The notes beneath the pieces are model-generated. The model did no database searches and was not told the DNA's origin. It saw nothing but the letters and a program-made list of their open reading frames with translations. A stretch of DNA of 64,000 bases from Arthrospira sp. PCC 9108. GTDB taxonomy: Bacteria; Cyanobacteriota; Cyanobacteriia; Cyanobacteriales; Microcoleaceae. Each line of letters begins with the position of its first letter. The stretch's first letter is position 1. Position numbers and translations under genes: made by a program. The stretch is taken from positions 2,542,501 through 2,606,500 of the forward strand of contig CP066886.1 of assembly GCA_016745315.1 (NCBI GenBank). Reading direction: 5' to 3'. Below, piece by piece: positions 9,019 to 58,100 of the stretch.

Positions 9019-10419
9019 ATGAAAATCAAGGTTCAAAATTTAGGTGTTATCAAACAAGCCCAACTAGAATTAGGAGATCTAACGATTATTTGTGGGCAAA
9101 ATAACTCTGGGAAAACTTATGTGACCTATGCTTTGTTTGGATTTTTATCGACATGGAGAGATGGCTTTGAGGTGGAAATTGCCAATGATATTATTGACCA
9201 GATTTTAAATCAAGGATTGGCGACGATCAACCTCCTAACTGATATTGATTCCCCAGAAAAAATCCTATCCCAAGCCTCCCAAGCCTACGCAGACAGTCTG
9301 GGGGAAATCTTTGGGACAAACGGAGCCAGGTTCGCCCAGACAACCTTTGAAGTTTTTTTAGATTTAAATAGAGATTTTTTTGATGATGGCTATGAAACCA
9401 ATATAGGAGCCAGAGGTTCTGATCAGCAAATCTTTTCACTAATCAAACCTGTAAATAGCCCAGAATTGACGGTTACACTCCTAGCCACAAAGGAAAATCT
9501 GAATTTTCCTCGACAAATCATCAATAAAATTATTAGTGATTCGATTAAAAATATCCTGTTTTCTCGATTTTTTCCGCGTCCTTTTATCGCGAGTGCGGAA
9601 AGAACAGGTGCGGCTATTTTTCGGAAAGAACTCAATTTTGCCCGTAATCGCCTCCTAGATGAACTGAGCCAAGTTGAAGGGGAAAAAGATAGGTTTCAAC
9701 TGCTGCTTTCTAAGGGGTATGGAGATTATGCGTTGCCGATTCATAAAAATGTTGAGTTTCTGCGTAATTTAGAGGGAATATCTAAACGCAGCAGTGATTT
9801 AAGCGAAATCAATCCTGGTATTTTGGATGATTTTGATGATATTATTGGCGGTCGTTATGTGGTGACCAAAAATGATGAACTCTATTATATTCCTATGGGT
9901 AATAAAAAAGCTCAGTTAACGATGGATGAAAGTTCTAGCGCAGTTCGTTCTTTACTGGATATTGGCTTTTATTTAAAACATATTGCCAAAATCGGTCAAT
10001 TACTAATTATTGATGAACCCGAACTAAATTTGCACCCGGAAAACCAACGTCGAATCGCTCGTTTAATTGCTCGGTTAATTAACAGTGGCATCAAAGTATT
10101 GATGACGACCCACAGTGATTATATTGTCAAGGAATTGAACACCCTAATCATGCTCAATTCCGATAAACCCCACATTCAGAAAATCGCTCAACAAGAAGGC
10201 TATAAACAAGATGAAATTCTCGATGCTAGTCGTGTTAGAGTTTATATCGCGGAAGAAGCCCTTGTTCAACTACCCGGTAAATCGAGGCGGAGTCGCTGCC
10301 AAACGTTAACTGTTGCCAAGATTACACCGGATTTCGGTATAGAAATTTCCAGCTTTGACACTGCGATTGAAGCCATGAATAAAATTCAAGAAGCGATCGT
10401 TTGGGGAGAAGAGTTCTAG
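9019..10419 (+). CDS. AAA/ABC-type ATPase of the OLD/RecF-like 'predicted ATPase' group
   Basis: A 466-residue soluble ATPase. Walker A is GQNNSGKT at 26-33. A signature-like MDESSSAVRSLLDIG sits near 306-320. Walker B is LLIIDEPELNLHPENQ with D332-E333, and the H-loop is MTTHSDYIVKEL with H365. The long insertion between the two nucleotide-binding halves is typical of OLD/AAA_15/AAA_21 ATPases that partner with nucleases or toxins. The stop codon TAG overlaps the GTG of the next gene (TAGTG), so the two are translationally coupled. In known defence systems such ATPases sense phage or DNA and license an effector. That role here is inference from architecture and neighbours. Confidence 0.8.
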   Translation: MKIKVQNLGVIKQAQLELGDLTIICGQNNSGKTYVTYALFGFLSTWRDGFEVEIANDIIDQILNQGLATINLLTDIDSPEKILSQASQAYADSLGEIFGTNGARFAQTTFEVFLDLNRDFFDDGYETNIGARGSDQQIFSLIKPVNSPELTVTLLATKENLNFPRQIINKIISDSIKNILFSRFFPRPFIASAERTGAAIFRKELNFARNRLLDELSQVEGEKDRFQLLLSKGYGDYALPIHKNVEFLRNLEGISKRSSDLSEINPGILDDFDDIIGGRYVVTKNDELYYIPMGNKKAQLTMDESSSAVRSLLDIGFYLKHIAKIGQLLIIDEPELNLHPENQRRIARLIARLINSGIKVLMTTHSDYIVKELNTLIMLNSDKPHIQKIAQQEGYKQDEILDASRVRVYIAEEALVQLPGKSRRSRCQTLTVAKITPDFGIEISSFDTAIEAMNKIQEAIVWGEEF

Positions 10420-11039
10420 TGTGGAAGAGAGATTATAAAATTCTGTCAGAGTTAATTGATGAATCAGCACAAATTAAAGCGATCGCTCTACCCTATAACA
10501 GTCGAGAAGTAATCCTAACTGAAGCAGATCAAGATGTTAAATATTCCATTAAAATTAAGGGATTTCCACCAGAATTTTTCATTATTAAATCCGATAAGTT
10601 TGCACCACCAGTAGGATTTATTCAAGGATTACAAGGAGAATGCAAACGTTCAGATTATATCATTTTGGTTAACATTTTGCTTAACCAAAAATCACAAAAA
10701 ACAGCTATTTTTTTAGAACTCAAGCGAGGCAACCCAGATAATCAAGATATTATTAAACAACTTAAAGGTGGTTTTTGTCTATTTAAATATTTGCAAAAAA
10801 TCGGGCAAGTTTTTTGGGGAAAGCCTGATTTTCTCAAGGATTATGATATTAAATTTGTGGTGATTAAAAATATACCCATGCCAGGTAATTTGAATAAACG
10901 TTCATCACAATTCAAACGAGAAAATCTGGTGAAGTCCCTTAAAATAGACGGTGACAATATAGAAGAAATACCGAAGCACTATTTATCGGTTAAGCATCAG
11001 AAAGAAATTTATTTCCGAGTTTTCTTAGAAAAAGCATGA
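10419..11039 (+). CDS. PD-(D/E)XK nuclease-like partner of the upstream ATPase
   Basis: I do not recognise a named family. With the GTG at 10419, which overlaps the ATPase stop codon and has GGAG just upstream, the protein has 206 residues. The stretch CKRSDYIILVN followed by TAIFLELKRG gives D79, E100 and K102, i.e. D-X20-E-X-K inside beta-strand-like sequence, with Q114 following. This is the signature of a PD-(D/E)XK nuclease core. A small nuclease-like protein coupled to an OLD-like ATPase looks like an effector/sensor pair. The alternative is a non-catalytic regulatory subunit. A TTG six codons earlier is a less likely start. Confidence 0.6.
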   Translation: MWKRDYKILSELIDESAQIKAIALPYNSREVILTEADQDVKYSIKIKGFPPEFFIIKSDKFAPPVGFIQGLQGECKRSDYIILVNILLNQKSQKTAIFLELKRGNPDNQDIIKQLKGGFCLFKYLQKIGQVFWGKPDFLKDYDIKFVVIKNIPMPGNLNKRSSQFKRENLVKSLKIDGDNIEEIPKHYLSVKHQKEIYFRVFLEKA

Positions 11040-11070: not shown

Positions 11071-11285
11071 CTCAAATACTTGACGACAGAATGGAGGTTT
11101 TGCTATACTGACGGAAATCGCTTCCGAGGGGTTATTGTGCCTACACCCAAAAAAAAGCCGGAAACCCTATATAGATCGTGAAATATTAATATTTTGTGGC
11201 TACAATTTAAAATGGCGATGCACGAGTTTTTGAGGATTTAGTCCAGGCTGAAAATTAGGCTATTGACAAAATAGACATTTTATGA
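11071..11285 (+). repeat. Leader copy A, shared by the two AAA-WD40 genes
   Basis: A stretch of about 215 bp, clearly similar to 15056-15270 (my alignment by eye suggests roughly 80%). Conserved blocks include CTCAAATACTTGACGACAGA, TTATTGTGCCTACAC, AAGCCGGAAACCCTATATA, the dyad AAATATTAATATTT, GCGATGCACGAGTTTTT and TTGACAAAATAG. It contains no reading frame and lies upstream of the start codon at 11337. It is probably a common promoter/regulatory leader duplicated together with the gene. The rest of the 11040-11336 gap holds nothing recognisable. Confidence 0.7.
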
Positions 11286-11336
11286 AATTACCGTTGTGGT
11301 GGGCTAATAATTAACTATAATTATCGATATAATCTC

Positions 11337-14300
11337 ATGATACTTGAGTCCCAATCAATTTATCAAGTTGGTGGTAGCCTTCATAGGGACTCACCGACCT
11401 ATGTGGAGAGGGCGGCGGATAGGGAACTCTATCAAGCCTTGAAATCCGGGGAATTTTGCTATGTTCTCAATAGTCGTCAAATGGGTAAATCGTCCCTGTT
11501 GGTGCGGACTTCCTATCGGCTACAACAGGAGTCGCTGAAATGTATCAGCTTAGATATGACTTGTATTGGTAGTGAAAATGTGACACCTTTACAGTGGTAT
11601 AAAGGGATTTTAACATTTTTATGGACAGGTTTTAAGCTGACCAGTAAATTTCCACTGAAAAGCTGGTGGAATGAACGAGAAGACCTATCTTTATTGCAGC
11701 GTTTAAGTCAATTTATTGAAGAGTTATTAAAACATTTACCAGACGAACACCTGTTTATATTTGTGGATGAAATCGATAGCATTTTAAGTTTACCATTCCC
11801 GGTGGATGATTTTTTTGCTTTCATTCGTTATTGTTATAATGAAAGGGCTGTTAATCCCGAATATAATCGGATTACTTTTGCGATTTTTGGAGTAGCTACA
11901 CCTTCGGATTTAATTAAAGATAAAAATCGCACGCCGTTTAATATTGGGAAAGCTATACAGTTATCAGGATTTACTTTAAAGGAAGCTGAACCTTTAATGA
12001 CAGGTTTAATTATTCCGGGTAAAAATTCTCGTCGTTTGCTGAAAAGTATATTAAATTGGACGAGAGGACAGCCTTTTTTAACTCAGAAAATTTGTAATAT
12101 ATTATGTGTGGAGATATTGAAAGAAGGTAAACATAAGTTCTGGGAGTCTAAATCCGAAGAAAAGATTATCTATAAAATTGTTCAAGATTACATTATTGAT
12201 AATTGGGAATATCACGACGAACCGGAACATTTACGAACTATCTCTAATCGGTTATTAGATAATCACAAAACTCTGGCAAATTTGCTAAGTCTTTATCAGC
12301 AAGTTTTAATAGGTATAATAGTTGAAGCTGATGGTAGTGCTGAACAAACGGAATTAATTATGTCTGGCTTGGTGATTAAATACCATAATTATTTAATTGT
12401 GAAAAATAAGATTTATAAAAGCATTTTTAATCACGATTGGGTAGATAAAAAGTTAAGTAATTTACGACCCTATTCTCAAACTCTTGAAGCCTGGGTGATT
12501 TCTGGTAAAACTGATGAATCTCGACTGCTGCGAGGACAGGCTTTCAAAGATGCTCAAAAGTGGATGGTAGGTAAGGTTTTGAGTCCGGTAGATTATCAAT
12601 TTTTAAATGCTTCGGCTGAACTGGAACAAATGCAAGTTAGACAGCAACTAGAAATTGAGCGATCGCAAGCTATTGCCAACCAATTAAAAGAACAGCAAAT
12701 CAGATTATTAGAGCAACAAAAAAATGCCCAAAAACAAAAACTTTTTATAGGAGTTTTAACTATTGGTTTTGTGATAAATTCTCTGTTGGTATTTCAGACA
12801 TTTAATTTATATATGAGAGCTTCAATTAATGAAAAACAAGCTAGAATTAACGAAATTAGTGCTGTTTTAAATTCTGCAAATACTTTATTCACTCAAAATT
12901 ATCACTTGGATGCTTTATTGTCGGCTTTAGCAGCACATCAAAAAATTGCAACTATAAAATCACCTAATCCCGCCATTATCGAGAGGGTAAAGCAGACGGT
13001 TAGCCGGGCATTTTTTAGGGCTGATGAGTTCAATAGAATTGTAGCCCATGACCATTTGATTTGGCGAGTTACTTTCTCTCCTGACGGTGAATATATCGCT
13101 ACTAGCAGTAATGATAATACTATTAAACTCTGGGATAAGCGAGGTAATTTATTACAGGTTTTTGCTGGTCATGAAGGGGACGTTTTTGATGTGGCTTTTT
13201 CCCCAGATGGTCAATTTTTAGCCTCAGCGAGTTTAGACAAAACGGCTAAGATCTGGACTGTTGATGGTAATTTAGTTACTACCCTAAGTCTCCATAAAAA
13301 TGGTGTCAGGGCGATCGCTTTTTCTCCAGATGGTCAGACCATAGGAATAGCTAGTCAAGACAAAACAGCGCAACTGTGGCGACGGGGTGACCAGGGATGG
13401 GTTGATGCTTATCTTCACCTGACTTTAACAGGTCATGATGATGCTGTAGAGGCGATCGCTTTTTCTCCAGATGGTCAAAATATCGCCACCACTAGCAAAG
13501 ACCACACCGTGAAACTATGGGGAATAGATGGCAGTCTAGTTAATACCTTTAGCGGACACCAAAACCCGGTCTGGGACGTGGTATTCTCCCCGATGGCAAA
13601 ACTATCGTTTCTGGTAGTAATGACGGTACAGCTAAAGTGTGGGGACTTGATGGCAGTCTGATTACTACTTTACCCTCCCAGGAAGGTTGGGTTTGGTCTG
13701 TGGCTATTAGTCCTCCCGATAGCATTATCCGCCGTTTAGGTATTGTTTTCGCCACTGCTGATTTAGCTAATAATATTAAGCTGTGGGATATAGATGGTAA
13801 TTTGCTATACACCCTAGAAGGTCATCAACAACAGGTCTGGAATGTTAGCTTTAGCCCTGATGGTAAAACGCTGGCTTCGGTAAGTAATGATAAAACTCTT
13901 CGACTCTGGGGTTTTGAACACCCTAGCCTCACTATTTTGAGGGGACATAATAGGGGTATTTTAGATGCGGTATTTTCTGAGGATGACAGTTTTGTGGTAA
14001 CTGGTAGTGATGATAAAACTCTCAGAATTTGGCGACCTAATGGGGAGTTATTACAGACTATTCCTACTAGCGACGGGGGAGTTTTGTCGGTCAGTGTTGC
14101 TTCTCAATATCAAATTTTGGCTACTGGTAGCTATGACCAAATCATTCAACTGTGGCAAATTTCCCCTGACGGAACCAACATAACTTTACTAAACACTTTA
14201 ACTGAACATACTGGACCTGTTTGGTCGGTGGCTTTTAGTCCCAATGGTGAATTTCTGGTGAGTGGTAGTGGTGATAGCACTATCAAACTTTGGAATAAAG

Positions 14301-14920
14301 ACGGGGTTTTGCTCAAAAGTTGGTCTTCACAGGGACAGACTATCCGCACGATTGCTATTAGCCGAGATAATCAGTTAATTGCTTCTGGTGGTAGTGGTGG
14401 AATGGTGAAAATTTGGGGAGTTGATGGTAGCCTGAAACGGGAACTAAGTCCATACCACAGGGGAACTATCTTAGGCTTAGATTTTTCTCCTGATGGTCGC
14501 TTTTTGGTTTCTGCTGCTGAAGATGATATGGTTATGCTGTGGGATATAAATGGCAATCTAATTAATGATTTTAAAGCTGATCATAATGATATTGTATCGG
14601 ATGTGACTTTTTCCCCAGATAGTCAAATACTGGCGACAGCGGGGACAGATGGAAGTGCGAAAATTTGGAGTCTTGATGGGGAAAATTTGGCGATTTTTAA
14701 TGGTCATCGTACCCATCAAACTCGGGTTTTGTCGGTGAATTTTAGCCATGATGGTCAACGGTTAATTTCTACTGATATTGATGGGGTGGCTATCCTGTGG
14801 AATATTAAGGATTCTATTAATTATCAAACAGTGCGTAATTATGCCTGTGACTGGATACGGGATTACTTACAAATTCATGCCGACACTGAAAATGGCGATC
14901 GCCAAATATGCCAAAATTGA
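11337..14920 (+). pseudogene. AAA-like ATPase with WD40 propellers, interrupted by one frameshift
   Basis: The N-terminus is the cyanobacterial AAA-like domain (PF14516 type): [17 protein letters not shown], the Walker A-like [12 protein letters not shown] near residue 50, and a Walker B-like [13 protein letters not shown] charged coiled coil and one membrane segment ([21 protein letters not shown]) follow. Then come about 14 WD40 blades marked by repeated SPDG...LWD/LWG, and a conserved tail (YACDWIRDYLQIH). At 13588-13591 a run of four Cs has lost one base relative to the expected SPDGK codon string. The frame therefore ends at 13661 and continues in another frame from about 13592. Restoring one C gives a protein of about 1194 residues. 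It is paralogous to the intact gene downstream. Its function is unknown; a STAND-like or scaffold/sensor role is a guess. Confidence 0.8.
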
Positions 14921-15055: not shown

Positions 15056-15270
15056 CTCAAATACTTGACGACAGAATGGGGGTTTTGCTATGCTTATATA
15101 AATGCCATCCAAGGGCTTATTGTGCCTACACGCCCCAAAAAAGCCGGAAACCCTATATATATCGTGAAATATTAATATTTTTTGGTGAAAGTTTAAAATT
15201 GCGATGCACGAGTTTTTAAGGATTGAGCCAGGGTCAAAAATTAGCCTCTTGACAAAATAGCGATTTTGTG
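15056..15270 (+). repeat. Leader copy B, shared by the two AAA-WD40 genes
   Basis: The counterpart of 11071-11285, with the same ordered blocks: CTCAAATACTTGACGACAGA, TTATTGTGCCTACAC, GCCGGAAACCCTATATA, AAATATTAATATTT, GCGATGCACGAGTTTTT and TTGACAAAATAG. It ends about 100 bases before the chosen start codon. Conservation of non-coding blocks in the same order suggests selection for a shared control element, or simply a recent duplication. Confidence 0.7.
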
Positions 15271-15371
15271 CGTATCATGCTTTGTTTACAAAAATTGAAG
15301 ATAAAGCTGTTGATTATTTTATTAATTGTAATAGTGAGATAATTATCAGAATTGACGATGAGATTTTAATT

Positions 15372-18300
15372 ATGATAACTGAATATCGATCAATTTATCA
15401 AGTCGGAGGTAGTCTGCATACCGACTGTCCTAGCTATGTTAAGCGACAAGCAGATACAGACCTGTATGAAGCCTTGAAGCGGGGAGAGTTTGGTTATGTT
15501 CTCAACTCTCGTCAGATGGGTAAATCTTCTCTGTTAGTGCAAGCCCGCCACCGTTTACAAGCAGAAGGAATACGTTGTGCGACGTTAGACATGACGGTTA
15601 TTGGTAGTGAAGATGTTACCCCAATGCAGTGGTATAAGGGAATTTTTGTAGAACTTTGGCGAGGGTTTGGGTTATTAAAATATATGCCATTTAAAGTATG
15701 GTGGAAAGAACAAGGCGAACTTTCATTGGTACAGAAATTAAATCAGTTTATAGTTGAGGTTTTACTGCCAACTTTTCCCCATGATATATTTTGCATTTTT
15801 ATTGATGAGATCGACACTATTTTAAGTTTACCATTTCCGGTAGATGATTGGTTTGCATTTATTCGATTTTGTTATAACCAAAGGGCAACTGAGGCAGCAT
15901 ATCAACGGTTAAATTTTGCGATTTTCGGGGTAGCTAATCCCTCCGATTTAATTAGAGACCGCACCCGAACCCCTTTTAATATTGGCACAGCGATCGCACT
16001 TTCTGGGTTTACCCTAGAGGAAGCAAAACCCCTACAAAAGGGATTAAATGTTCCGGGTTTTAATGGGGAAATTTTGCTGCAAGAAATCTTAAACTGGACA
16101 GGAGGACAGCCGTTTTTAACTCAGAAGTTATGTAATCTCATATATTACCAATATCATCAAGATATTAATCCGCTAAATCGTGGTCAAATAGCATCGGAAA
16201 AAGAGTTTATAAAAACATTGGTGATTGACCAGATAATTACTAATTGGGAAAAGCAAGACGAACCGGAACATTTGCGAACCATTAGAAATCGAATTATTAG
16301 CAATCCTCAAATCTGCTCAAGATTATTAGGTATTTATCAGAAAATACTCCTAGAGACCGAAATACCCTTTGATGGTAGTCGGGAAGAAACGGAGGTTTTA
16401 CTATCGGGATTAATTGAAAAATCCGGGAGTGTGCTAAAAGTTAAAAATCCCATTTATGAGCATATTTTTAACTTAGAATGGACGCAAAAACAGCTAAATT
16501 TACTACGTCCATATTCCCAAAACTTTGAGGCTTGGATAGCTTCTTGTCAAACAGATGATTCTCGACTTTTACGAGGTCAAGCCTTGTTAGAAGCGCGAAA
16601 TTGGGCGTTAGGAAAAAGTTTAAGTGATGGTGATTATCAATTTTTATCAGCTTCGGAAAAATGCGATCGCGCTGCCATGCAACAGGCTTTAGAAGCGGAA
16701 AAATTAATCGCGGTAGAAGCGAGACTTTTAGAAGAATATAAAAACTCAAGACTACAGCGGCGACTGTTAACCACGGTAGTTTTATCACTATTGTTCTCCC
16801 TAGGGTTAGCGGGTTTAGCTTACTCCCAATATCGTCGAGCGATCGCCAGCTACGAAATCACCAAAGTCCGAGAAATTGAGGCCCTAATTTCCGCCACAGA
16901 GGGTCAGTTTTTATCACAAAATAGCTTCAATGCTTTAATTAATGCTGTACGGGCAAAAATGAGGATTAAGGATGTCAAAAATCCCGATTATAATATCCAA
17001 AATAAAGTAAATTCTGTCTTGATTCAATCTGTTTATGGGATGAATGAATATCATAGTTTTGGTCGTCAGGAAGACCGAGTTTGGTCTTTAGATTGGAGTA
17101 AAGATGGTGAACAGATAGCGATTATTACCCGCACTAATTCTCAAGATGTTGACCGAAGGGATAAAATTATTGCAGAAAATAATCAGATTATGATTTTTAA
17201 TCGGCGGGGAAAACTACTGAATATTATCCCAAATTTTGCCTATGAATTACGAACTATAGCTTTTTTCCCAGACGGCTATATAGCCACGGGACACAGCAAT
17301 GGGGAAATCAGAATTTGGTCTAATGAAGGTGATTTGGTGTTCACGTTTTCCGCCCATGAGGAAGAAATATGGGATCTGATAATTCGGGAGCAAGACACCA
17401 TAGCCACTTCTAGCACTCGTGGTTCTATAAAACTTTGGCGCAGAGATGGCACTTTATTAAATGAATTTGTGGGTCATACTCAAGTGGTGAAAAAGATAGC
17501 CTTTTCTCCAGACGGTAACCGCCTGGCTTCTGTGAGTGATGATGGTACAGTGAAACTGTGGGACATAACAGGAGAATTATTAGCTGATTTTGAACATTCT
17601 CAAGAACCTGTGGAGGCTTTGGCTTTTTCTCCTGATGGTCAGTATCTAGTGGCTGGAGGTCATAATAGAGAATTGAAATTATGGTCTATTAATGAAAGGT
17701 CTGCTATTGTCCTCGGAAAACATGACAATAGTATTAGGACTGTGGCTTTTTCTCCTGATGGTAATATAATTGCTTCTGGGAGTTGGGATCAGACTATCCG
17801 TTTATGGAGTCCTGACGGTAGACACCTGCAAACTTTTGTTTCCCATACTGCGCCGCTTACTCAACTCGCCTTTAGTCCTGATGGTGAAACTCTGGCTTCT
17901 GCTGATTTCAATGGGGAGGTTAAACTATGGAAAGTTAAGAGTCCGTTTTTGACTGTGTTATCAGGACATGAAACCCATCTGCGGAGAGTAGCTTTAACTC
18001 CAGACCATCAGCAAGTTTTCTCTGTTAGTTGGGGTGGAGAAGTTTATCGCTGGGATATGCAGGGTCGTTTACTGGGAAGACTAGAAGGTCATGATAAGGG
18101 TGTAATTGGTCTAGGGGTTTCTCCTGATGGTGAAATTGTGGCGACGGGTAGCTGGGATGAAAGTATTCGCCTCTGGAATATGGAGGGAGAGTTATTAAAG
18201 GTGATCAATAATGCTCATTCTATGGGGGTAAATCAATTAGCTTTTTCGCCAAATGGTGAGGTGATAGCTTCGGTGGGAAATGATAAGAAAGTGAAATTGT

Positions 18301-25141: not shown

Positions 25142-25440
25142 TTGATATTGATAATGGATAATCGTAGGGGCGGGTTCCGCAGTTAATTAGAAGATCCACC
25201 GACCATATTAATAAACCCGCCCCCCACCCGGTAATTAATGGATAATGGATAATTGTAGGGGCGGGTTCCGCAGTTAATTAGAAGACCCACCGACCATATT
25301 AATAAACCCGCCCCTCTCACCGACCATATTAATAAACCCGCCCCTCTCACCGACCATATTAATAAACCTGTCCCTCTCACCGACCCGATTAATAAACCCG
25401 TCCCCACCCACCCGGTAATTAATGGATAATGGATAATGTA
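25142..25440. repeat. Tandem 30-bp repeats and GGGGCGGGTT/AACCCGCCCC inverted repeats
   Basis: Two copies of an 80-110 bp block each hold a 10-bp perfect inverted repeat: GGGGCGGGTT at 25167-25176 and 25258-25267, AACCCGCCCC at 25214-25223 and 25305-25314. Then four head-to-tail 30-bp units run from 25291 to 25410 (CGACCATATTAATAAACC plus a C-rich end); the last two are diverged. Short AATGGATAATGGATAAT tracts flank the blocks and run into the mtnB start. There is no spacer sequence, so it is not a CRISPR. Confidence 0.85.
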
Positions 25441-26064
25441 ATGAATACAGACCCCCGTGAATCTTTAATTGAAGCATCTCGCCAATTTTATCAGCTAGGA
25501 TGGATGGCTGGGACGGCTGGTAATTTGTCGGCTAGGGTGGAAGATGGCAGTTTTTGGATTACTGCTAGTGGTAAACAAAAGGGGAAATTGGCGGCGGATG
25601 ATTTTGTGCGGGTTTCTCTCACGGGGGAATTGCTAGAAACCCCTAAGCCTGAGAATAAACCCTCAGCGGAAACGAGTATCCATCAGGCGATTTATTCCTG
25701 TTTTCCTGATGCTAAAGCCTGCTATCATGTCCATTCGGTTGAGGCGAAATTGGTGACTAATTTTGTGGAAGGAGACCAATTGCCTTTACCTCCGATTGAG
25801 ATGTTAAAAGGTTTGGGGGTGTGGGAGGAAAATCCCCAGGTGTTTATGCCGGTTTTTAAAAACCATTTACAGGTTCCCAAAATTGCTAAAGAAATAAGCG
25901 ATCGCTTTCACCAAGAACCCCCGCAAGTCCCGGCTTTGTTAATTCGTAATCATGGGGTGACAGTCTGGGCTAATTCCGCCGCCGAAGCGGAAAATCATGT
26001 AGAATTAGCCGAATATATCTTTAGATATATTGTAGCAGCCCGTCAGGTAGGCATCAAGTTTTAA
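25441..26064 (+). CDS. mtnB: Methylthioribulose-1-phosphate dehydratase
   Basis: 207 residues of the class II aldolase/adducin fold. Visible motifs are GWMAGTAGNLSARV, the zinc ligands H96 and H98 in CYHVHSVEA, and NHGVTVWANSAAEAENHVELAEY. MtnB dehydrates methylthioribulose-1-P to DK-MTP-1-P, the substrate of MtnW, which is encoded just upstream. The start is uncertain: ATGs at 25429 and 25441 both lie at the edge of the repeat tract and neither has a clear ribosome-binding site; I prefer 25441. The stop overlaps the converging permease gene by four bases. Confidence 0.85.
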   Translation: MNTDPRESLIEASRQFYQLGWMAGTAGNLSARVEDGSFWITASGKQKGKLAADDFVRVSLTGELLETPKPENKPSAETSIHQAIYSCFPDAKACYHVHSVEAKLVTNFVEGDQLPLPPIEMLKGLGVWEENPQVFMPVFKNHLQVPKIAKEISDRFHQEPPQVPALLIRNHGVTVWANSAAEAENHVELAEYIFRYIVAARQVGIKF

Positions 26065-39686: not shown

Positions 39687-41399
39687 ATGGCAACCCTAAA
39701 TTTCCACACCACCAACACCACCTTCCGCCAACTTCTGGGTAATGGCTTAATCTATCATGTACCTCCCTTTCAGCGTGACTATTCCTGGGGAAATGACGAA
39801 TGGGACGACCTGTGGCAAGATCTGACTGCTTTATTTGAAGAAGATAGCGAACCCGCTCATTATATGGGCTACCTCGTGCTACAATCATCTGATAGCAAAC
39901 ACTTCGATATTATTGATGGTCAACAACGAATGACTACCATCAGTATTATGATCCTGGCTGGTTTGTCTTATTTACAAGATTTAGTGAAGGCGGACTTGGA
40001 TGCACTCAACAACAGTCGTCGCCAATACCAACTGCAAAATAGCTACATTGGTTATGTCGATCCTGTCACCCTCATTCCCCAATCAAAACTCAGACTAAAT
40101 CGCCATAATGATCGTTTTTATCAAACCTACCTAGTCCCCCTAGAACCCCTCCCTCAACGAGGTCTAAAAGCCTCTGAACATCAACTACGCCAAGCATTTA
40201 TTTGGTTTAAAGAAAAAATCAGACTCCGACTGGGAAATCAATCTGATAGTGGACAAAATTTTGCGGCTTTTATTGATTCCCTAGTAGACAAACTCTTTTT
40301 TACTGTGATCACCGTTACAGATGAATTGAACGCTTTTAAGGTTTTTGAAACTCTTAACGCCAGAGGGGTGCGTCTTTCCGCCACGGATCTACTCAAAAAC
40401 TATTTATTTTCACTCATTAGTAACGCAGATACCCATGATATAGAAATGCGTAGCCTCGAAGATAAATGGGAGCGGATTGTGGGTTTATTGGGTAGTGAGA
40501 GTTTCCCGGAATTTCTGCGTATTTTTTGGAATAGTCGCCATAGACTTGTCCGTAAATATGATCTGTTCAAAATCATTCGACGACAGGTGAAAAGCCGTAA
40601 AGATGCCTTTGGCTTAGTCCGCAGTTTGGAGCATGATGCTGGGGTTTATGCGAGTCTTGGAGACCCATATGATGCTAGTTGGAAACCCGATGAAAAACAA
40701 GCCTTAAAGCAACTGTTAATGTTTCGTGTGCGTCAGCCTTTGGCAATACTGTTAGCTTGTTATCATCAATTTTTTGACAACGATAGAGATGCCTTTACCC
40801 GCATTCTGAAAGCGATCGCTGTGATTTCATTTCGCTATAATGTTATTTGCAACTTGCAGACCTATGAACAAGAACGTTTGTATAATGAGATTGCTGTGAA
40901 GGTTTCCCATGGTCACTATAAGACTGCTGAGGAAGTTTTGGCGGCGCTGGGTGTTGTGTATCCAGATGATCATCAGTTTAAGGGAGCTTTTACTCAAAAA
41001 GAACTCCGCACTACGGATACTCGCCATAAGAAAATTGTCCGCTATATTCTCTTTGAAATTGAGAAACAGCGCTCCGGGAAAGCGTTTGATTTTGAGAGTT
41101 CCACCTATAATTTAGAGCATATTCTCCCGGAAAATCCCTCGGATGCCTGGGCTTATATCGAGGAAAGTAAACAGGAACGCTTAATCTACCGCCTCGGTAA
41201 TATGACCCCCCTCGAAGCGACTAAAAACCGTGAAGTTGGCAATCAGGATTATGGGACTAAGCGGGATGTTTATGCCCAGAGTAATTTTGAAATTACTAAA
41301 GCGATCGCCGAACATTATGATACCTGGGATGAACATAAAATTGAGTCTCGGCAAAAGCGATTAGCTGCCATAGCTGCGGGCATTTGGCGCATTGGGTAA
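39687..41399 (+). CDS. DUF262/DUF1524 (GmrSD-like) protein, probable type IV restriction enzyme
   Basis: 570 residues in one chain. The N-terminal DUF262 domain (ParB/GmrS-like NTPase) has VPPFQRDYSW and IIDGQQRMTT (DGQQR at 77-81). A helical middle includes FETLNARGVRLSATDLLKN. The C-terminal DUF1524 domain (GmrD-like, HNH-type) has YNLEHILPEN with H478, then RLGNMTPLEATKNREVGNQDY. Family members such as GmrSD and BrxU cut modified phage DNA in an NTP-dependent way. Anti-phage defence is the likely role here. It is a stand-alone gene. Confidence 0.85.
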   Translation: MATLNFHTTNTTFRQLLGNGLIYHVPPFQRDYSWGNDEWDDLWQDLTALFEEDSEPAHYMGYLVLQSSDSKHFDIIDGQQRMTTISIMILAGLSYLQDLVKADLDALNNSRRQYQLQNSYIGYVDPVTLIPQSKLRLNRHNDRFYQTYLVPLEPLPQRGLKASEHQLRQAFIWFKEKIRLRLGNQSDSGQNFAAFIDSLVDKLFFTVITVTDELNAFKVFETLNARGVRLSATDLLKNYLFSLISNADTHDIEMRSLEDKWERIVGLLGSESFPEFLRIFWNSRHRLVRKYDLFKIIRRQVKSRKDAFGLVRSLEHDAGVYASLGDPYDASWKPDEKQALKQLLMFRVRQPLAILLACYHQFFDNDRDAFTRILKAIAVISFRYNVICNLQTYEQERLYNEIAVKVSHGHYKTAEEVLAALGVVYPDDHQFKGAFTQKELRTTDTRHKKIVRYILFEIEKQRSGKAFDFESSTYNLEHILPENPSDAWAYIEESKQERLIYRLGNMTPLEATKNREVGNQDYGTKRDVYAQSNFEITKAIAEHYDTWDEHKIESRQKRLAAIAAGIWRIG

Positions 41400-49133: not shown

Positions 49134-52100
49134 TTACACATAGACAAACGAGGAACTATTCAAACTGATATTGTTGACTCCTTGCACAATACCAATAAGT
49201 TCATCAGTAACATCACCTTTATAGAAGATAGCCAACCCAGTAGGTAAACCTTGGGGACTATCTGCCAGGCGATAATCTTCTGAGCTACCGTGAAGCTGAA
49301 TCACATCATTGTTAAAATCAGTAATCAGAGCATAATCTTGCCAACCGGGTTGGTCATCAATGCCATCATCATAGTAAACAGAATTACTATCACCTAAGAC
49401 AAAGGTATCAAAACCGCCATTTCCTGTCAATATATCTATTTGTCCGCGTCCCGGAGTGGCGGAATTGGGGTCTGTTCCATTCAGCCAATCATCGCCTTGA
49501 GTACCAACTATGGTATTAATGGGAACGCGATTTAAAGAGGTAGAACTGTAGTAGCCAGGAAGTCCCACAGTTCGTCTGGTTTCCAGGTTCTGAATTTCCT
49601 CTACTCCGACAGCGGGTAAAGGCTCACCCTTGAAAGTTCGGAAACTGGCTGCGACATAGCTTAGAGAGGATTCATTATTAATAAAAACGGGGATATCTCC
49701 AAATTCTCCATGGAGGATATAAGCGCCCAAAACTTCAGTTTTTCCACCATTAACAGTCTCAACTAATGTCCCCTCATCCTCAGTTTTGTAGCCAAGAATC
49801 CACAAATTACCGCCATCATTCTTAATGCGGGGAGTGTGAATATTCTCTGGGTTAATCTGACGTGCCCAAACATTTTGATTAGTGAAAGACCAAGGACCGC
49901 CACTGATATCTTCAATATATAAATCCCCAGTTCCTTGACTGGTATTAAAATACTGATTAATAATCATATTGGACATAACCATAGTCCGATCGCTGTCTTG
50001 AATAAAGGTAATATTTGGGGCTTCCAAACGCTCCACAGAGACGACATCGGCACTGCCATCAGCGACGGTAATTGTGCCACTACCTAGAATAGTAGCTTCC
50101 GTGCCAATAAAGCGCTGTAGATTATTTCTTAACTGAAGATTACCGCCAATATTCCATACCCCATTAGGTAGGTAAACGGTACTAGCACCAGAATCGATCG
50201 CCGCCTGAATTGCCAGGGTATCATCAATGCCATCATTAGGTAAACCACCAAAAGCCAAAGGACTGACCCAATCAGATAAATCATCCCAAGGGACTACGGG
50301 AGTCGGCAAAACTTCCAGTTCAAAAGCCTGATTGGGAGCATCAAATAGGGTATTAAAGCCACCATGCGCCATCCACTCAGCCACATAACCATCAGGTTGA
50401 GACAAGTTACCTCGTCCATTATCATCCTGTCGAATAGCGAGTTGATAACCAGAGGTATTCAGATTATTAACATACATCCCTTTTTGATTATAAATAGCTG
50501 GTTGAGTGGCGGCTGCACCGACCCCGGTTAAGTTAGCATCCATAATCGTAAAATCACTGGAACCATCAGGCATATTCCAAATGACGGGAACGGCATTAGT
50601 GCTTTCTAAGTCTCGCACAAACAGAGTTTGATTAAAATTCTGCCAACCATAAACATTTTGATTAACAAGTTTAACGCCTTCGAGTGTTTGAGTAGCGGTA
50701 GGATTCCAAGTCCGAATACCGACATCAAATCCGACGACTTCGACATCCTTAACCAGTAGAGGTCCATTTTCATCGGTAGCGAGATCAAGACCGATCGCAC
50801 CTTGTCCATCACGGGAAACTATGCGAACATTATTGATAGTTCCCTGGTTGTTGGCGATAAAACTAATAGCGATCGCATCTGGGTTTCCCTCGCCCACATC
50901 AACAGTCAAATCCCTGATACTATTACGGAACCGTTGAGCGGGTGGATTTCCGGTATCAATAACGGCAGTATCAAAACCCAAATTATCTTGAAGTCTAATA
51001 ATAGTGCGATCGCGGCTTTCACCCTGAAGAATATTGCGCTTTTGACTACCAGGGTATGTAATCTGACCACTAACATCATAAACCCCATTAGGGAAGTAAA
51101 TAATCCGATTTTGACCCGCATTCTCATTAATAGCCTGCTGAATAGCGGCAGTATCATCTATACCATCATTAGGAATCGCTCCATAATCCCTAACATCAAC
51201 CACACCCGCATCAGCCGGGAACACAATATTTTGAGTTGTATTAGTGCCAAAATCAATGGTAAAACTACCCAAGGTGGCAGTTGGGACAAAATTACCCACC
51301 ACATCACTAACGGCATTGGGTTCCATTATGACCGTATAAGTTCCGCCGTCGGAGACATCCCAAACGCCGCCAGAAGGTGCAATTTGATAGGTAGCATTCC
51401 GCGTGTTTCCATTGTCCTCACCGTAGACACGCACCAAACTAGCCAGTTGCTGAACCCCTAATGGTCCTATAACCCGAATATCGGCATCATCCAAAGTAGA
51501 TTCTTGAATTTCCCAGTCATCAGAGTAGCTAACCGTGAAAGCATATCCGGTATCACTACCCAAGATAGGAGTCAAATCAGGAGCCAGTAAAGCCGCCGTT
51601 GGAGGTAACAGGTCGGGGGTATCTTCTGGAATAATGGGGGCGGCTGTATTGAAAAAGTAATCCACCTGGGAGGTAAACGGCGGAGATGATGAACTTCCCG
51701 CATTTCCCGCAAATAACCCCACCTGTTGCACTTGTAAGGCTTCCGTAAAACTCCCGGCTGTCGTCCAACTCACACCATCAGGGGAATAGTTGAGAGTCCA
51801 TACATCCCCTTCTCGGTTAACTTTCAGGTGTCGGGCTTGTCCGGGTTGTACCCCCATACGAATCATAGACCGGGAACCACCGTTACGGGTTGAAGCCGCA
51901 AATAAGGCTAAACCTGAATTAGTCTTAAAGACATCAAACCTGACCCAGTTACTATCATCTTGTTCTACCAAAATCCCCTGTATTTGCTTATCTAAGGCGG
52001 GGTCGGCAGCAAATTTGATTTCTAACTCAAAATCTTGGTTTTGAGCGGGCTGCATGAGTCTGGAGGCGCTACGGTTGCGATTCCACATATCAGTAGCACC

Positions 52101-55100
52101 GGGAACTGATAGTTCTACATAAGCATCTGGTGTACCAGTTCCGGTGAGTAGGTAGGAACTATTATTGCTGGGACTGATAAAATTCCAGCGGGGGTCTAGG
52201 CTGTTGGTGTTGAAGTCGTCGGACTGGAAGGCTAAGTCTAACTCGGAAACGGTGAGGGAGACGGTGGCTGGGTTAGAGATAGCGCCATCATTATCTTCTA
52301 CGGTATAAGTAAAGCTATCCGTACTGGTAGATGAACCGTCATGGCTATAGGTGATTGTTCCATTAGGGTTAACGGTGATATTACCGTAGTTGGGAGAGTC
52401 AACTACGGTGACGGTATCTGGGATTAAAACACCATCAGGGTCGCTATCGTTACTAAGGACGTTAATGGTAACGGCGTTACCCATCATCACTATGGCGTTA
52501 TCATCATTAGCGGTGGGGGGTTGATTTTCTTGGATAGTCAGGGAGACGGTGGCTAGGTTAGAGATAGCGCCATCATCATCTTCTACGGTATAAGTAAAGC
52601 GATCGCTATTGGTAGATGAACCGTCATGGCTATAGGTGATTGTTCCGTTAGGGTTAACGGTGATATTACCGTAGTCTGGTGAGTCAACTATGGTGACGGT
52701 ATCTGGGATTAAAACACCATCAGGGTCGCTATCGTTATCGAGGACGTTAATGGTAACAGCGTTTCCGGTGCGGACCGTGGCGTTATCATCGTTAGCGGTG
52801 GGGGGTTGATTTTCCAGTTGTTCATCTTCTGGAATAACAGGCGATTCGTCTTCGTCTGGTGGAATCACAACCTGACCATCTTCTGGAATAATGGGGGCGG
52901 CTGTATTGAAAAAGTAATCCACCTGGGAGGTAAATGGGGGAGATGATGAACTTCCCGCATTTCCCGCAAATAACCCCACCTGTTGCACTTGTAAGGCTTC
53001 CGTAAAACTCCCGGCTGTCGTCCAACTCACACCATCAGGGGAATAGTTGAGAGTCCATACATCCCCTTCTCGGTTAACTTTCAGGTGTCGGGCTTGTCCG
53101 GGTTGTACCCCCATACGAATCATAGACCGGGAACCACCGTTACGGGTTGAAGCTGCAAATAAGGCTAAACCTGAATTAGTCTTAAAGACATCAAACCTGA
53201 CCCAGTTACTATCATCTTGTTCTACCAAAATCCCCTGTATTTGCTTATCTAAGGCGGGGTCGGCAGCAAATTTGATTTCTAACTCAAAATCTTGGTTTTG
53301 AGCGGGCTGCATGAGTCTGGAGGCGCTACGGTTGCGATTCCACATATCCGTAGCACCGGGAACTGATAGTTCTACATAAGCATCTGATGTACCAGTTCCG
53401 GTGAGTAGGTAGGAACTATTATTGTTGGGACTGATAAAATTCCAGCGGGGGTCTAGGCTGTTGGTGTTGAAGTCGTCGGACTCGAAGGCTAAGTCTAACT
53501 CGGAAACGGTGAGGGAGACGGTGGCTGGGTTAGAGATAGCGCCATCATTATCTTCTACGGTATAAGTAAAGCTATCCGTACTGGTAGATGAACCGTCATG
53601 GCTATAGGTGATTGTTCCATTAGGGTTAACGGTGATATGACCGTAGTTGGGAGAGTCAACTACGGTGACGGTATCTGGGATTAAAACACCATCAGGGTCG
53701 CTATCGTTACTAAGGACGTTAATGGTAACGGCGTTACCCATCATCACTATGGCGTTATCATCATTAGCGGTGGGGGGTTGATTTTCTTGGATAGTCAGGG
53801 AGACGGTGGCTAGGTTAGAGATAGCGCCATCATCATCTTCTACGGTATAAGTAAAGCGATCGCTATTGGTAGATGAACCGTCATGGCTATAGGTGATTGT
53901 TCCGTTAGGGTTAACGGTGATATTACCGTAGTCTGGTAAATCAACTACCGTCACCGTATCTGGGATTAAAACACCATCAAGGTCGCTATCGTTATTAAGG
54001 ACGTTAATGGTAACGGCGTTTCCGGTGCGGACCGTGGCGTTATCATCATTAGCGGTGGGGGGTTGATTTTCTTGGATAGTCAGGGAGACGGTGGCTAGGT
54101 TAGAGATAGCGCCATCATCATCTTCTACGGTATAAGTAAAGCTATCCGTACTGGTAGATGAACCGTCATGGCTATAGGTGATTGTTCCGTTAGGGTTAAC
54201 GGTGATATTACCGTAATCTGGTAAATCAACTACCGTCACCGTATCTGGGATTAAAACACCATCAAGGTCGCTATCGTTATTAAGGACGTTAATGGTAACG
54301 GTGTTTCCGGTGCGGACCGTGGCGTTATCATCATTAGCGGTGGGGGGTTGATTTTCTTGGATAGTCAGGGAGACGGTGGCTAGGTTAGAGATAGCGCCAT
54401 CATCATCTTCTACGGTATAAGTAAAGCTATCCGTACTGGTAGATGAACCGTCATGGCTATAGGTGATAGTTCCGTTAGGGTTAACGGTGATAGTACCGTA
54501 GTCTGGTGAGTCAACTACCGTCACCGTATCTGGGATTAAAACACCATCAGGGTCGCTATCATTGCTCAATACATCAATGATAACGGACTGGCTTGGTTCT
54601 ACTCTGACTGTATCATCGTTGGCTATGGGTGGCTGATTTCCGAGGGAGACATCTTCGGGGACAATGGGAGCCGCCATATTGAAAAAGTAATCGACCTGGG
54701 AGGTAAACATGGCTGGTGATTTTCCAGCATGACCTGCAAATAACCCCACTTCTTGGACTTGTAAATCACGGATAAAACTGCCAACTGTATTCCAATTTAT
54801 ACCATCTCCAGAAGATTTGAGAGTCCATAAGTTTCCTTGTCGATTTACATTCAAATATCGAGCTTCTCCCGTAGCCACGGAACCAGAAACCATCACACGG
54901 GAACTACCATTAGTGGTAGAAGCACCAAATACTGATAAACCTGACCCAGTTTGAGATACATTAAACCTTAACCAATTCCGCTCATCTTGCTCTACCAAAA
55001 TTCCCTGCATTTGCTTGGCTACAGTGGGGTCGGAAGCGAATTTAATTTGTAACTCAAAATCTTCGTTGGCGGCGGGTTGCATGAGTCGCGCAATGGTCCG

Positions 55101-58100
55101 ATTTTGATTCCACAAATCAGTATTAGCGGGGACAGAAAGTTCTAAATAAGCATCACTTGTCCCGGTTCCTGTTAAAGCATAGGAGGAATTGGCTAGAGGT
55201 TTAATAAAATTCCATTCTGGCTTGAGGTTGCTGCTATTAAAGTCATCGGAGTTGAAGGCTAAATCTAATTCCGAAATACCCAGAAATACAGTGGCTTCGT
55301 TGGAGGTAGCACCATGATTATCTTCGACGGTATAAGTAAAGCGATCGCCACTGATATAGGAACCATTATGATTGTAAGTAACTACCCCATTTTGAATACT
55401 AACAGTGCCGTGGTTGGGTTCAGTAACGATAGTTACAGTATTCGGCATCAAGCTACCGTCAATATCTTCATCATTACTAAGAACTCTAATATTAACACTA
55501 TTTCCTTGGCTAACTCTACTGTGATCATTATTGGCGATCGGTGCGAGGTTTGGTCGCTCTTCTCCATAGGGAACAACTGTAACATCACCAAAAGTGGCAT
55601 CATAATAGTGAGCAACTAGGAGCAATGAACCATGAGACAAGGCTCTGAAATCTGATGATGATTTAAAGGATTGACGATCCCATTCTGTGGGTTCCGGTTC
55701 GCTTTCTTCCCAAACTTTAAAGCTATAAATACTACCATCATCTACCGTCTGCGATCGCATCTTGAAATTGTAGGTATTCCCGGCTTCGAGAGTGATGTTT
55801 CTGCCACTATTAAAGAAGGTTGATCCTTCTAAAGACAAGCCACTGCTCATGTGATAAAAACCAATTTCCCCATGAGTGCGCCACTGAACATAAGGCTGGG
55901 TTCCACCATCGGGTTGATGTCCTTTCCATCGCATTAACAGACCGATTATCCCATTAGTATTAGTTTCATGAATCGTAATGGGAACAGTGGCTTCGTAATC
56001 ATCCCATCCAATGTCACCAATAGCAATTAAGCGGTCATAACCTGTTTCAGCGGTGCGGACTCCATCATCTGTTAAAGTCCACAGACCATCTACCACTTGT
56101 GCTACATCGTTAATTTGATCAACTTCACTCCAGTCAATGGAATAAGTTTTCGGCCAAGCATTTCCTAATTCATGTTTAATAGTGACAGATTCGGTAGCAA
56201 TATGACCCAGTGTATCAACTGCTGTAATGACAACTATATCATCGTGATCAGATGCGGGGTTGAGATCAGTGTAAGCAATTTCAACGTTAAAGTCGCCATT
56301 TCTTGATAAACGAGGATTCCTCGATTCACCATGAACATTAAGACGAAGAGGAATTTCTGGTCCTCCATTGAGTGAGTAGCTTAGAGAAGATATACCGTCT
56401 GGGTCGAAAGCGTAACCAAGGATATTGACCCAAACTAGAGGCTTACCAATATGACCAAAACTCTGTTCTGAACCATACCAGATATCAAGAACGGTGGGAT
56501 TTGGGTCTGCTGATGGTTCTTGAATGGTGATGCTAACATTCGCTAGGTTAGAGGTAGCGCCATCATTATCTTCTACGGTATAAGTAAAGCTATCCGTACC
56601 GCTAGATGAACCGTCATGGCTATAGGTGATTGTTCCGTTAGGGTTAACGGTGATATTACCGTAGTTGGGAGAGTCAACTACCGTCACCGTATCCGGGACT
56701 AAAACACCATCAGGGTCGCTATCATTACTAAGGACGTTAATGGTAACAGTGTTTCCGGTGCGGACTGTGGCGTTATCATCATTAGCGGTGGGTGGCTGAT
56801 TTTCCTCGATAGTCAGGAAAACGGTAGCTTCGTTAGAGGTAGCGCCATCATCATCTTCTACGGTATAAGTAAAGCGATCCGTACTGGTAGATGAACCGTC
56901 ATGGCTATAGGTGATTGTTCCGTTAGGGTTAACGGTGATAGTACCGTAGTTGGGAGAGTCAACTACCGTCACCGTATCTGGGATTAAAACACCATCAAGG
57001 TCGCTATCATTATTAAGGACGTTAATGGTAACGGCGTTTCCGGTGCGGACCGTGGCGTTATCATCATTAGCGGTGGGTGGCTGATTTTCCTCGATAGTCA
57101 GGAAAACGGTAGCTTCGTTAGAGGTAGCGCCATCATCATCTTCTACGGTATAAGTAAAGCTATCCGTACTGGTAGATGAACCGTCATGGCTATAGGTGAT
57201 TGTTCCGTTAGGGTTAACGGTGATATTACCGTAGTTGGGAGAGTCAACTACCGTCACCGTATCTGGGATTAAAACACCATCAAGGTCGCTATCATTATTA
57301 AGGACGTTAATGGTAACGGCGTTTCCGGTGCGGACCGTGGCGTTATCATCATTAGCGGTGGGTGGCTGATTTTCCTCGATAGTCAGGAAAACGGTAGCTT
57401 CGTTAGAGGTAGCGCCATCATCATCTTCTACGGTATAAGTAAAGCTATCCGTACTGGTAGATGAACCGTCATGGCTATAGGTGATTGTTCCGTTAGGGTT
57501 AACGGTGATAGTACCGTAGTCTGGTAAATCAACCACCGTCACCGTATCCGGGACTAAAACACCATCCGGGTCGCTATCATTGCTCAATACATCAATGATA
57601 ACGGACTGGCTTGGTTCTACTCTGACTGTATCATCATTGGCTATGGGTGGCTGATTTTCAACTGGTTCTGGAGTAACAACCTGACCATCTTCTGGAATAA
57701 TAGGAGCCGCTGTATTAAAAAAGTAATCCACCTGGCTGGTAAACTGAGGAGATGATGAACTGTCAGCATTTCCCGCAAATAACCCCACCTGTTGGACTTG
57801 TAAGGCTTCCGTAAAACTCCCGGCTGTCGTCCAAGTTGAACCATCAGGGGAATAGTTGAGAGTCCAGACATCCCCAGTGCGGTTAACTTTCAGGTGTCGG
57901 GCTTGTCCGGGTTGTACCCCCATACGAATCATAGACCGGGAACCACCGTTACGGGTCGAACCCGCAAATAAGGCTAAATCTGAATTAATTTTAAAGACAT
58001 CAAACCTGAGCCAGTTGTTATCATCTTGCTCTACCAAAATCCCCTGCATTTGCTTATTTAAGGCGGGGTCGGCGGCAAATTTGATTTCTAACTCAAAATC

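Follow-up and report, generated by a model that had tools for sequence, protein, structure and literature searches.

An overlapping ATPase and predicted nuclease gene pair in Arthrospira sp. PCC 9108: a divergent member of the PDC-M47/PD-T4-4 kind of candidate anti-phage module

What is the role of two overlapping genes, one encoding a predicted ATPase and the other a small protein of no obvious family, in the genome of the cyanobacterium Arthrospira sp. PCC 9108? The stretch of DNA that we analysed, called the window throughout, comprises 64,000 nucleotides (contig CP066886.1, positions 2,542,501 to 2,606,500), and the pair, here named genes A and B, lies on its forward strand (Table 1). A first-pass annotation, made from the letters of the window alone, had read the pair as an ATPase coupled to a PD-(D/E)XK-type nuclease with a probable anti-phage function. 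This core claim is supported by the constant pairing of the two genes, the conservation of the proposed catalytic residues, the alpha/beta model of B, its match to the HSDR_N_2 profile and the homology of the family to PD-T4-4. We consider it probable that A and B form a two-gene anti-phage module of the PD-T4-4/PDC-M47 kind, in which an ATPase would control a nuclease and the infected cell would undergo abortive infection; the defence role, the ATP-dependent control and the abortive outcome are extrapolated from relatives.

The annotated one-base overlap, TAGTG, is indeed found, with both open reading frames (ORFs) in place: the stop codon TAG of A occupies positions 10417-10419 and the start codon GTG of B positions 10419-10421, one base being common to both. 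An alternative in-frame TTG at 10401 would yield a 212-residue version of B. We preferred the GTG because a start codon is possible at the exact 1-nt overlap in 59 of 79 relatives; another four have a 4-nt overlap, and in the remaining 16 the nearest B start lies 1 to 13 nt past the A stop. The guanine-cytosine content is 39% in A and 32% in B, with 43% for the window. In the whole genome, a single contig of 6.76 Mb, the only match to B at an expectation value (E) of 1e-3 or lower is gene B itself.

The first-pass annotation had left the second protein unrecognised and the pair without a name, a view that does not hold, as PADLOC lists it as the candidate system PDC-M47 (PDC-M47A plus PDC-M47B). 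For each gene the PDC-M47 model gives the best score of any PADLOC model, at full length: E 6e-216 and 716 bits for A (model positions 1-461 of 461), and E 2e-115 and 381 bits for B (positions 1-202 of 202). Both genes adjoin on one strand with the 1-nt overlap, adjacency being our own reading of the system and not taken from the PADLOC rule file. Literature searches, with subscription papers mostly outside their scope, found no paper naming PDC-M47.

The link to experimentally studied systems comes through PD-T4-4, which has the same two-gene layout. A matches PD-T4-4_A with E 8e-164 and 544 bits (residues 1-463 on model positions 1-457 of 460). Among the 79 rows of the B family, every one matches each of the five PDC-M47B models at E<=1e-3, and 52 match the PD-T4-4_B model PDLC04037 at the same threshold. 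Profile comparison with hhalign aligned the B family to two PD-T4-4_B proteins with E 2e-5 (probability 77) and 3e-6 (probability 88), the K-x-x-D block and the (D/E)xK motif being in register in both. These proteins belong to PD-T4-4-type pairs on two small plasmids, of E. coli (4.8 kb) and Klebsiella (4.3 kb), and differ from the window family in carrying D in place of the E of ExK; their annotated genes, moreover, lie 13 and 1 nt apart, without overlap. On these alignments the B family is homologous to PD-T4-4_B, and the pair is, by its profile scores, a divergent member of the catalogued PDC-M47/PD-T4-4 kind and not a new kind.

PD-T4-4, which lies on an integrative element, was recovered in E. 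coli by selecting for resistance to T4 (PMC9519451), and a review places it under PD(D/E)XK nucleases and AAA_15 ATPases (PMC10952713). A second relative is WonAB, from the Vibrio WASA-1 prophage, which its authors liken to PD-T4-4 and describe as closely related to an operon of an OLD-ABC ATPase and a novel restriction endonuclease (PMC12137116; reviewed also in PMC12409358). WonAB is likewise a two-gene system of an OLD-ABC ATPase and a PD-(D/E)xK-variant nuclease, by its published description. At 16.1 kDa, however, WonB is smaller than the 206-residue B (PMC12137116).

Judged by its domain matches, A is an OLD/Septu-type ABC ATPase. The Walker A, Walker B and H-loop motifs that had been proposed for it are all present, with their key residues, among them G26, G31 and K32 of Walker A, invariant in 73 of 73 rows of alignment A3 (72 of the 80 loci of the wider set described below, plus the window). 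Residues S306-S307 probably represent the OLD-type ABC signature. The Pfam match is AAA_15 (E 2e-29), and NCBIfam gave nothing above cut-off among the matches listed (best 25 of 61). The predicted model of A has a mean predicted local distance difference test score (pLDDT) of 84.2, residues 195-211 and 223-235 falling below 50. A structure search with this model ranked PtuA of retron/Septu complexes first (E 1e-10), with 175 matches at E<=1e-3 that include the heads of cohesin SMC and Rad50. The PtuA matches are significant, yet their template modelling (TM) scores reach only about 0.3-0.4 with large root-mean-square deviations (rmsd), and since SMC and Rad50 heads match too, the model places A among ABC-type ATPases and no closer.

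Several named systems share such an ATPase. The PtuA chains of Septu (PtuA-PtuB) and of retron Ec78/Eco7 are the nearest solved structures to A, and these systems also combine an ATPase with a separate nuclease. PtuB is an HNH nuclease, and one of the structure entries matched by the A model (9n69) names an HNH nuclease in its title, whereas in Pfam and PADLOC neither HNH nor PtuB models match B at E<=1. OLD nucleases, Gabija and PARIS contain an AAA_15/OLD-type ATPase related to A. Unlike class 1 OLD nucleases, A has no C-terminal Toprim match (Pfam scan, E<=1), which makes it an OLD/Septu-type ATPase and not an OLD nuclease. Gabija consists of GajA, with a Toprim domain, and the UvrD-like helicase GajB, whereas neither A nor B has a Toprim match and no helicase is listed among the neighbours scanned. 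The effector of PARIS is the Toprim protein AriB, and B matches neither Toprim nor AriB at E<=1. Membership in all four was rejected on these grounds. Of the earlier comparison with Septu and Gabija, the coupled ATPase-nuclease logic is supported, but the pair is neither of the two.

The proposed catalytic residues of B are D79, E100 and K102, and their conservation, which the first-pass annotation had made a test of its reading, is borne out. In alignment A1, made of the window and 22 B proteins from the 27 other loci of a 28-row phylum set collected by profile with no residue pattern, 19 of the 206 window positions are invariant in all 23 rows, and the three residues are among them (chance of all three falling there, p ~7e-4). 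Across the 28 rows, D79 is present in every one and E100 and K102 in 27, the sole miss being a gap in a short protein (locus L028). In the wider set each of the three is invariant in 81 of 81 B rows; the D79 count is biased, because one of the two collecting patterns covers this residue, but neither covers E100 or K102.

The AlphaFold2 model of B, built from 79 sequences, is confident (pLDDT 91.1, predicted TM-score 0.89). It begins with a helix (2-12) and strands 28-37, 40-47 and 53-57, followed by strands 80-88 and 91-101, helix 108-132 and strand 143-150. Typical of the PD-(D/E)XK core are a conserved acidic residue at one of its strands and a (D/E)xK motif on the strand that follows. In the model D79 and the ExK lie on adjacent strands and Q114 in the helix after them, an order of elements that is as expected for such a core. 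Profile comparison points the same way: hhalign aligned the B profile to HSDR_N_2 with probability 92 and E 6.8e-7, so that KRAD meets KRAD, IE-x-K meets IE-x-K and D, E and K are in register; among the 18 HSDR_N_2 sequences, too, the D, E, K and Q positions do not vary. This comparison included one positive family (HSDR_N_2, 18 of 30 loci used) and one control (Nitro_FeMo-Co, 18 of 20 loci used). The control was also a candidate in its own right, being the commonest Pfam match of the B family (11 of 79 rows at E<=0.1, best 0.0018); with an hhalign probability of 0.2 and E 0.29, it was rejected. Window B itself has nothing significant in Pfam and no match in NCBIfam.

A quite improbable alternative is that B is not a nuclease and owes the conservation of D, E and K to its structure or to another kind of catalysis. 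It draws on searches that returned no significant match: neither single-protein nor profile searches of PDB sequences with B exceeded threshold, the lactate dehydrogenase matches being short. Likewise, Foldseek searches of PDB and BFVD with the B model yielded nothing at E<=1e-3. The top PDB match was BsmI (0.015), with an unusable superposition (rmsd 17), and gelsolins and single-stranded DNA-binding proteins stood nearby in the list. These weak top matches include BsmI, Mus81-Eme1, FokI and a cap-snatching endonuclease, all of them PD-(D/E)XK enzymes. The alternative is opposed by the HSDR_N_2 match with all three residues in register, by the strand and helix order of the model, and by a sub-threshold PDB match to the Holliday resolvase Hjc (E 0.29) with the ExK in register, where D79 stands opposite D38 of the Hjc chain, a residue that precedes the catalytic D by 4 positions. 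In addition, the related WonB and PD-T4-4_B have already been modelled by others as PD-(D/E)xK proteins (PMC12137116). A PD-(D/E)XK fold for B is thus likely, not proven: the confident model, its strand order and the profile match favour the fold as first proposed, while a significant Foldseek match is missing.

Among the 386 genomes covered for the phylum, 33 contain a PDC-M47B-type match at E<=1e-3, which is strong (E<=2e-13) in 28; counted by genus, the matches fall in 23 of 143. Gene A was detected at all 30 phylum loci tested (loci L029 and L030 have weak B matches only and stand outside the 28-row count). The wider set consists of the best 80 of 151 relatives of B from a scan of GTDB genome contigs, with hosts in Cyanobacteriota, Pseudomonadota, Thermodesulfobacteriota, Poribacteria and others. 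In 79 of these 80, A lies directly upstream of B on the same strand; at the exception, L085, a tblastn search did not reveal a credible A either. In 72 of the 79 the A frame is longer than 430 residues, and the other seven are fragments: three run off the contig start (L063, L096, L109), L068 lies at a contig start, L073 has 399 residues, and L031 and L072 have A divided between two frames, B being open in both.

Distances among the A proteins and among the B proteins correlate (Mantel r 0.78 over 72 pairs, none of 2000 permutations as high), with mean identities of 62% for A and 48% for B. Alignment A3 served for A, the tree and the distance test using 71 loci plus the window; the B alignment, A2, holds 78 of 80 loci, leaving out L054 (contig end) and L085 (short). 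On the tree of A, Cyanobacteriota account for 2 changes and Pseudomonadota for 8, with few starred branches near the long branch of the window. The closest B protein to that of the window in the wider set is that of L031, a Limnothrix metagenome-assembled genome, at 49% identity.

Such a distribution bears on the idea that the pair is a housekeeping ATPase-nuclease of DNA repair or the cell cycle, as proposed for the archaeal OLD-family protein Cran1, which shows that OLD-family ATPases can act in the cell cycle (PMC12796447). We regard this as very unlikely. The pair is patchy: within the family, 10 of 21 genomes have A (one match partial), and strong B-type matches are limited to the 28 phylum genomes given above. 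It is also absent from this site in relatives: valS is present in 21 of 21 family genomes, but among 20 valS loci (flank about 1.5 kb or less) A stands beside the gene just in the two that belong to this genus. B is also broken or truncated in some genomes, as described below. Cran1, for its part, could not be deleted, and combines ATPase and nickase in one protein (PMC12796447). One family genome has, in addition to its main copy, another A that is less closely related (39% identity; locus L238, G157:C45:251376-252716).

The history of the locus includes both movement and decay. A plasmid of Annamia dubia carries a copy of the pair. Together with the patchy spread, the absence of A from most valS loci and the GC contents below that of the window, this plasmid copy points to a mobile and dispensable pair, in favour of the anti-phage module. 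In the other of the two genomes of the genus searched (G386), a deletion of 443 bp removes D79, E100 and K102 and shifts the B frame, while A remains open and 95% identical, with a ratio of nonsynonymous to synonymous substitution rates of 0.17 computed over the whole divergence. Seen in a single genome, this loss may be strain-specific, a matter of assembly or the result of selection against B. At L028 (genome G051), A is intact (462 residues) and B short (91 residues).

These observations can be set against a reading of the pair as a toxin-antitoxin-like addiction module, in which B would be a nuclease toxin, A would only hold it inactive and defence would be a side effect. Two small coupled genes, a plasmid copy and a patchy spread would suit such a module, as would the toxicity of overproduced WonB (PMC12137116). 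In WonAB, however, toxicity depends on the ATPase, and the authors excluded simple sequestration (PMC12137116). The G386 locus, too, speaks against addiction, as an antitoxin whose toxin has gone should itself decay, although the loss of B may be too recent for decay of A to show. Finally, A is an ABC ATPase of 466 residues and the better conserved of the two proteins; a large conserved ABC ATPase is unusual for an antitoxin. We consider addiction unlikely.

Around the pair we looked for further module genes. Neighbour ORFs of at least 80 residues within 3.5 kb were collected from 79 loci (408 ORFs; flanks of more than 3 kb upstream at 62 loci and downstream at 70), and the 12 largest families were considered. 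No conserved third gene was found: even the most frequent families reach no more than 6 loci, all of Microcystis, so that a third module gene was rejected. One large protein lies near the pair in 4 of the 79 loci (L065, L069, L075, L107), upstream in three; it measures 574, 763 and 771 residues in three of its four members.

The same count bears on direct restriction, the possibility that A and B recognise DNA of phages or plasmids, which B would then cleave so that the cell is spared. HSDR_N_2 is a domain named for DNA restriction enzymes, and GajA, with a related ATPase domain, nicks DNA (PMC10952713). Outside close relatives, however, no neighbour family, as known by clustering alone, recurs in more than 4 of the 79 loci, and hence no methyltransferase or specificity gene recurs either. 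In the presence of WonAB, moreover, phage DNA still replicates, if with a 2.7-fold defect, and the chromosomal DNA stays intact (PMC12137116). We give this possibility a low probability.

The two giant AAA-WD40 genes noted earlier beside the pair do adjoin it, as AAA_35-WD40 genes, but the first is split into two ORFs, a break that the other genome of the genus does not have at that place. With window positions 11071-12615 and 15056-16656 sharing 67% DNA identity over 1.6 kb, the two genes seem to result from a tandem duplication in which non-coding DNA upstream was copied as well. Their WD40 parts match the PADLOC family HEAT-ARM_XIII through the repeat region. They have no blastp match at E<=1e-5 among the 408 neighbour ORFs of relatives, which makes them unlikely members of the module.

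For a defence island, 115 neighbour ORFs from the loci of 13 relatives (13 of 20 regions; two of the loci, L135 and L143, are look-alikes from one genus code) were compared with 126 control ORFs from the same 13 genomes. Ten control stretches lie about 1 Mb away and three only 80-400 kb away; four control ORFs were left out (three from L156 and L157, one from L159). The result is weak either way, since families are not genes and only the best 25 of 88 are listed on each side. Co-occurrence, as foreseen in the first-pass annotation, holds for A and B themselves, in 79 of 80 relatives; this small comparison showed no enrichment of defence genes around them.

Several results weigh against the proposed module. 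The island comparison gave 88 PADLOC families at E<=1e-20 near the pair and likewise 88 in the controls, and the surroundings in the window (valS, the AAA_35-WD40 genes, Sua5, a LarC-type protein and UvrA) are no classic island. Among 72 B proteins none is more divergent than window B, whereas window A ranks tenth, and taken alone window B matches PD-T4-4_B weakly (E 0.0086). To the missing Foldseek match of B and the low TM-scores of A with PtuA must be added that the module decays in places, as B is broken in G386 and truncated in L028 and A is split in L031 and L072. No B match was found in 50,697 phage records, and among viral contigs none was found with the alignment as query, two weak ones (27% identity) appearing with the single protein.

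Table 1. Positions of the gene pair, its predicted functional residues and associated features in the window
Feature	Position	Strand	Basis or remark
Gene A, OLD/Septu-type ABC ATPase (predicted sensor/regulator), PADLOC PDC-M47A	9019..10419	+	ORF, 466 aa; PADLOC, Pfam, model
Walker A GQNNSGKT, residues 26-33	9094..9117	+	K32 in 73/73 rows
S192-A193-E194-R195	9592..9603	+	S192, E194, R195 each in 73/73 rows
S306-S307, probable OLD-type ABC signature	9934..9939	+	both in 73/73 rows
Walker B LLIIDEPE, residues 328-335	10000..10023	+	D332, E333 in 73/73 rows
H-loop histidine H365	10111..10113	+	73/73 rows
TAGTG stop-start overlap of A and B, 1 nt	10417..10421	+	sequence
Gene B, predicted PD-(D/E)XK nuclease (predicted effector), PADLOC PDC-M47B	10419..11039	+	GTG start, 206 aa
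443 bp present in the window and missing from G386, the other genome of the genus	10500..10942	+	sequence comparison
Codon of D79, predicted metal-binding acid	10653..10655	+	directly before strand 80-88
Codons of E100-L101-K102 (ExK)	10716..10724	+	E100 near end of strand 91-101, K102 right after
Codon of Q114, invariant glutamine	10758..10760	+	in next helix, 108-132
AAA_35 + WD40 gene, split	11337-13661 and 13637-14920		different frames, overlapping at 13637-13661

Farther from the pair, the window holds other genes of some interest. A GmrSD-type modification-dependent restriction gene (39687-41399; GmrSD_N 8e-37, GmrSD_C 1e-29) lies 28 kb from it. The 372-residue product of 24023-25141 matches the RuBisCO large-chain catalytic domain (5e-36) and is possibly a RuBisCO-like protein; a class II aldolase-like gene (25429-26064) adjoins it. 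On the minus strand, 49134-58892 encodes a protein of 3252 residues with DUF4347, many Ig/cadherin-like repeats and concanavalin-like and pectate-lyase-like domains, probably a surface protein.

How would the anti-phage module work? The closest guide is WonAB, which depends on K34, R182, E300 and H333 of WonA and on K71 of WonB (PMC12137116). The toxicity of WonB requires active WonA, and the system both aborts infection and stops translation, chromosomal DNA being left intact (PMC12137116). From WonAB we infer that the cyanobacterial pair works in the same way, A sensing and licensing and B cutting; R195 of A may be the counterpart of WonA R182. Mechanistically, A would probably dimerise around ATP, sense a sign of infection and control B, and B, with its predicted PD-(D/E)XK fold, would bind metal and cut through D79, E100 and K102. 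Overlapping translation would balance the two proteins and let both assemble while being made. Upon infection, A would switch B on, B would cut an essential nucleic acid, and the cell would halt before the phage was completed, that is, by abortive infection. As to the substrate, we tentatively suggest RNA, which we hold to be possible but not the likelier case, the remaining probability being shared by DNA and other targets; by analogy with WonAB, RNA needed for translation is a leading candidate.

A broader proposal, which we put forward as doubtful, is that PDC-M47 constitutes a separate PD-T4-4/WonAB branch widespread in cyanobacteria, in which a conserved ATPase would drive a fast-changing nuclease that cuts translation RNA, and which lineages would silence by deleting the nuclease and keeping the ATPase. 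The B-deleted locus of G386 lends itself to the question of how the ATPase acts by itself.

Taken globally, a pair that looked anonymous now stands in a family with two experimentally studied relatives, PD-T4-4 and WonAB, and two PADLOC entries, PDC-M47 and PD-T4-4, are joined as homologous on the alignments given above. For work on cyanobacterial phages, this provides a concrete two-gene candidate with named residues.

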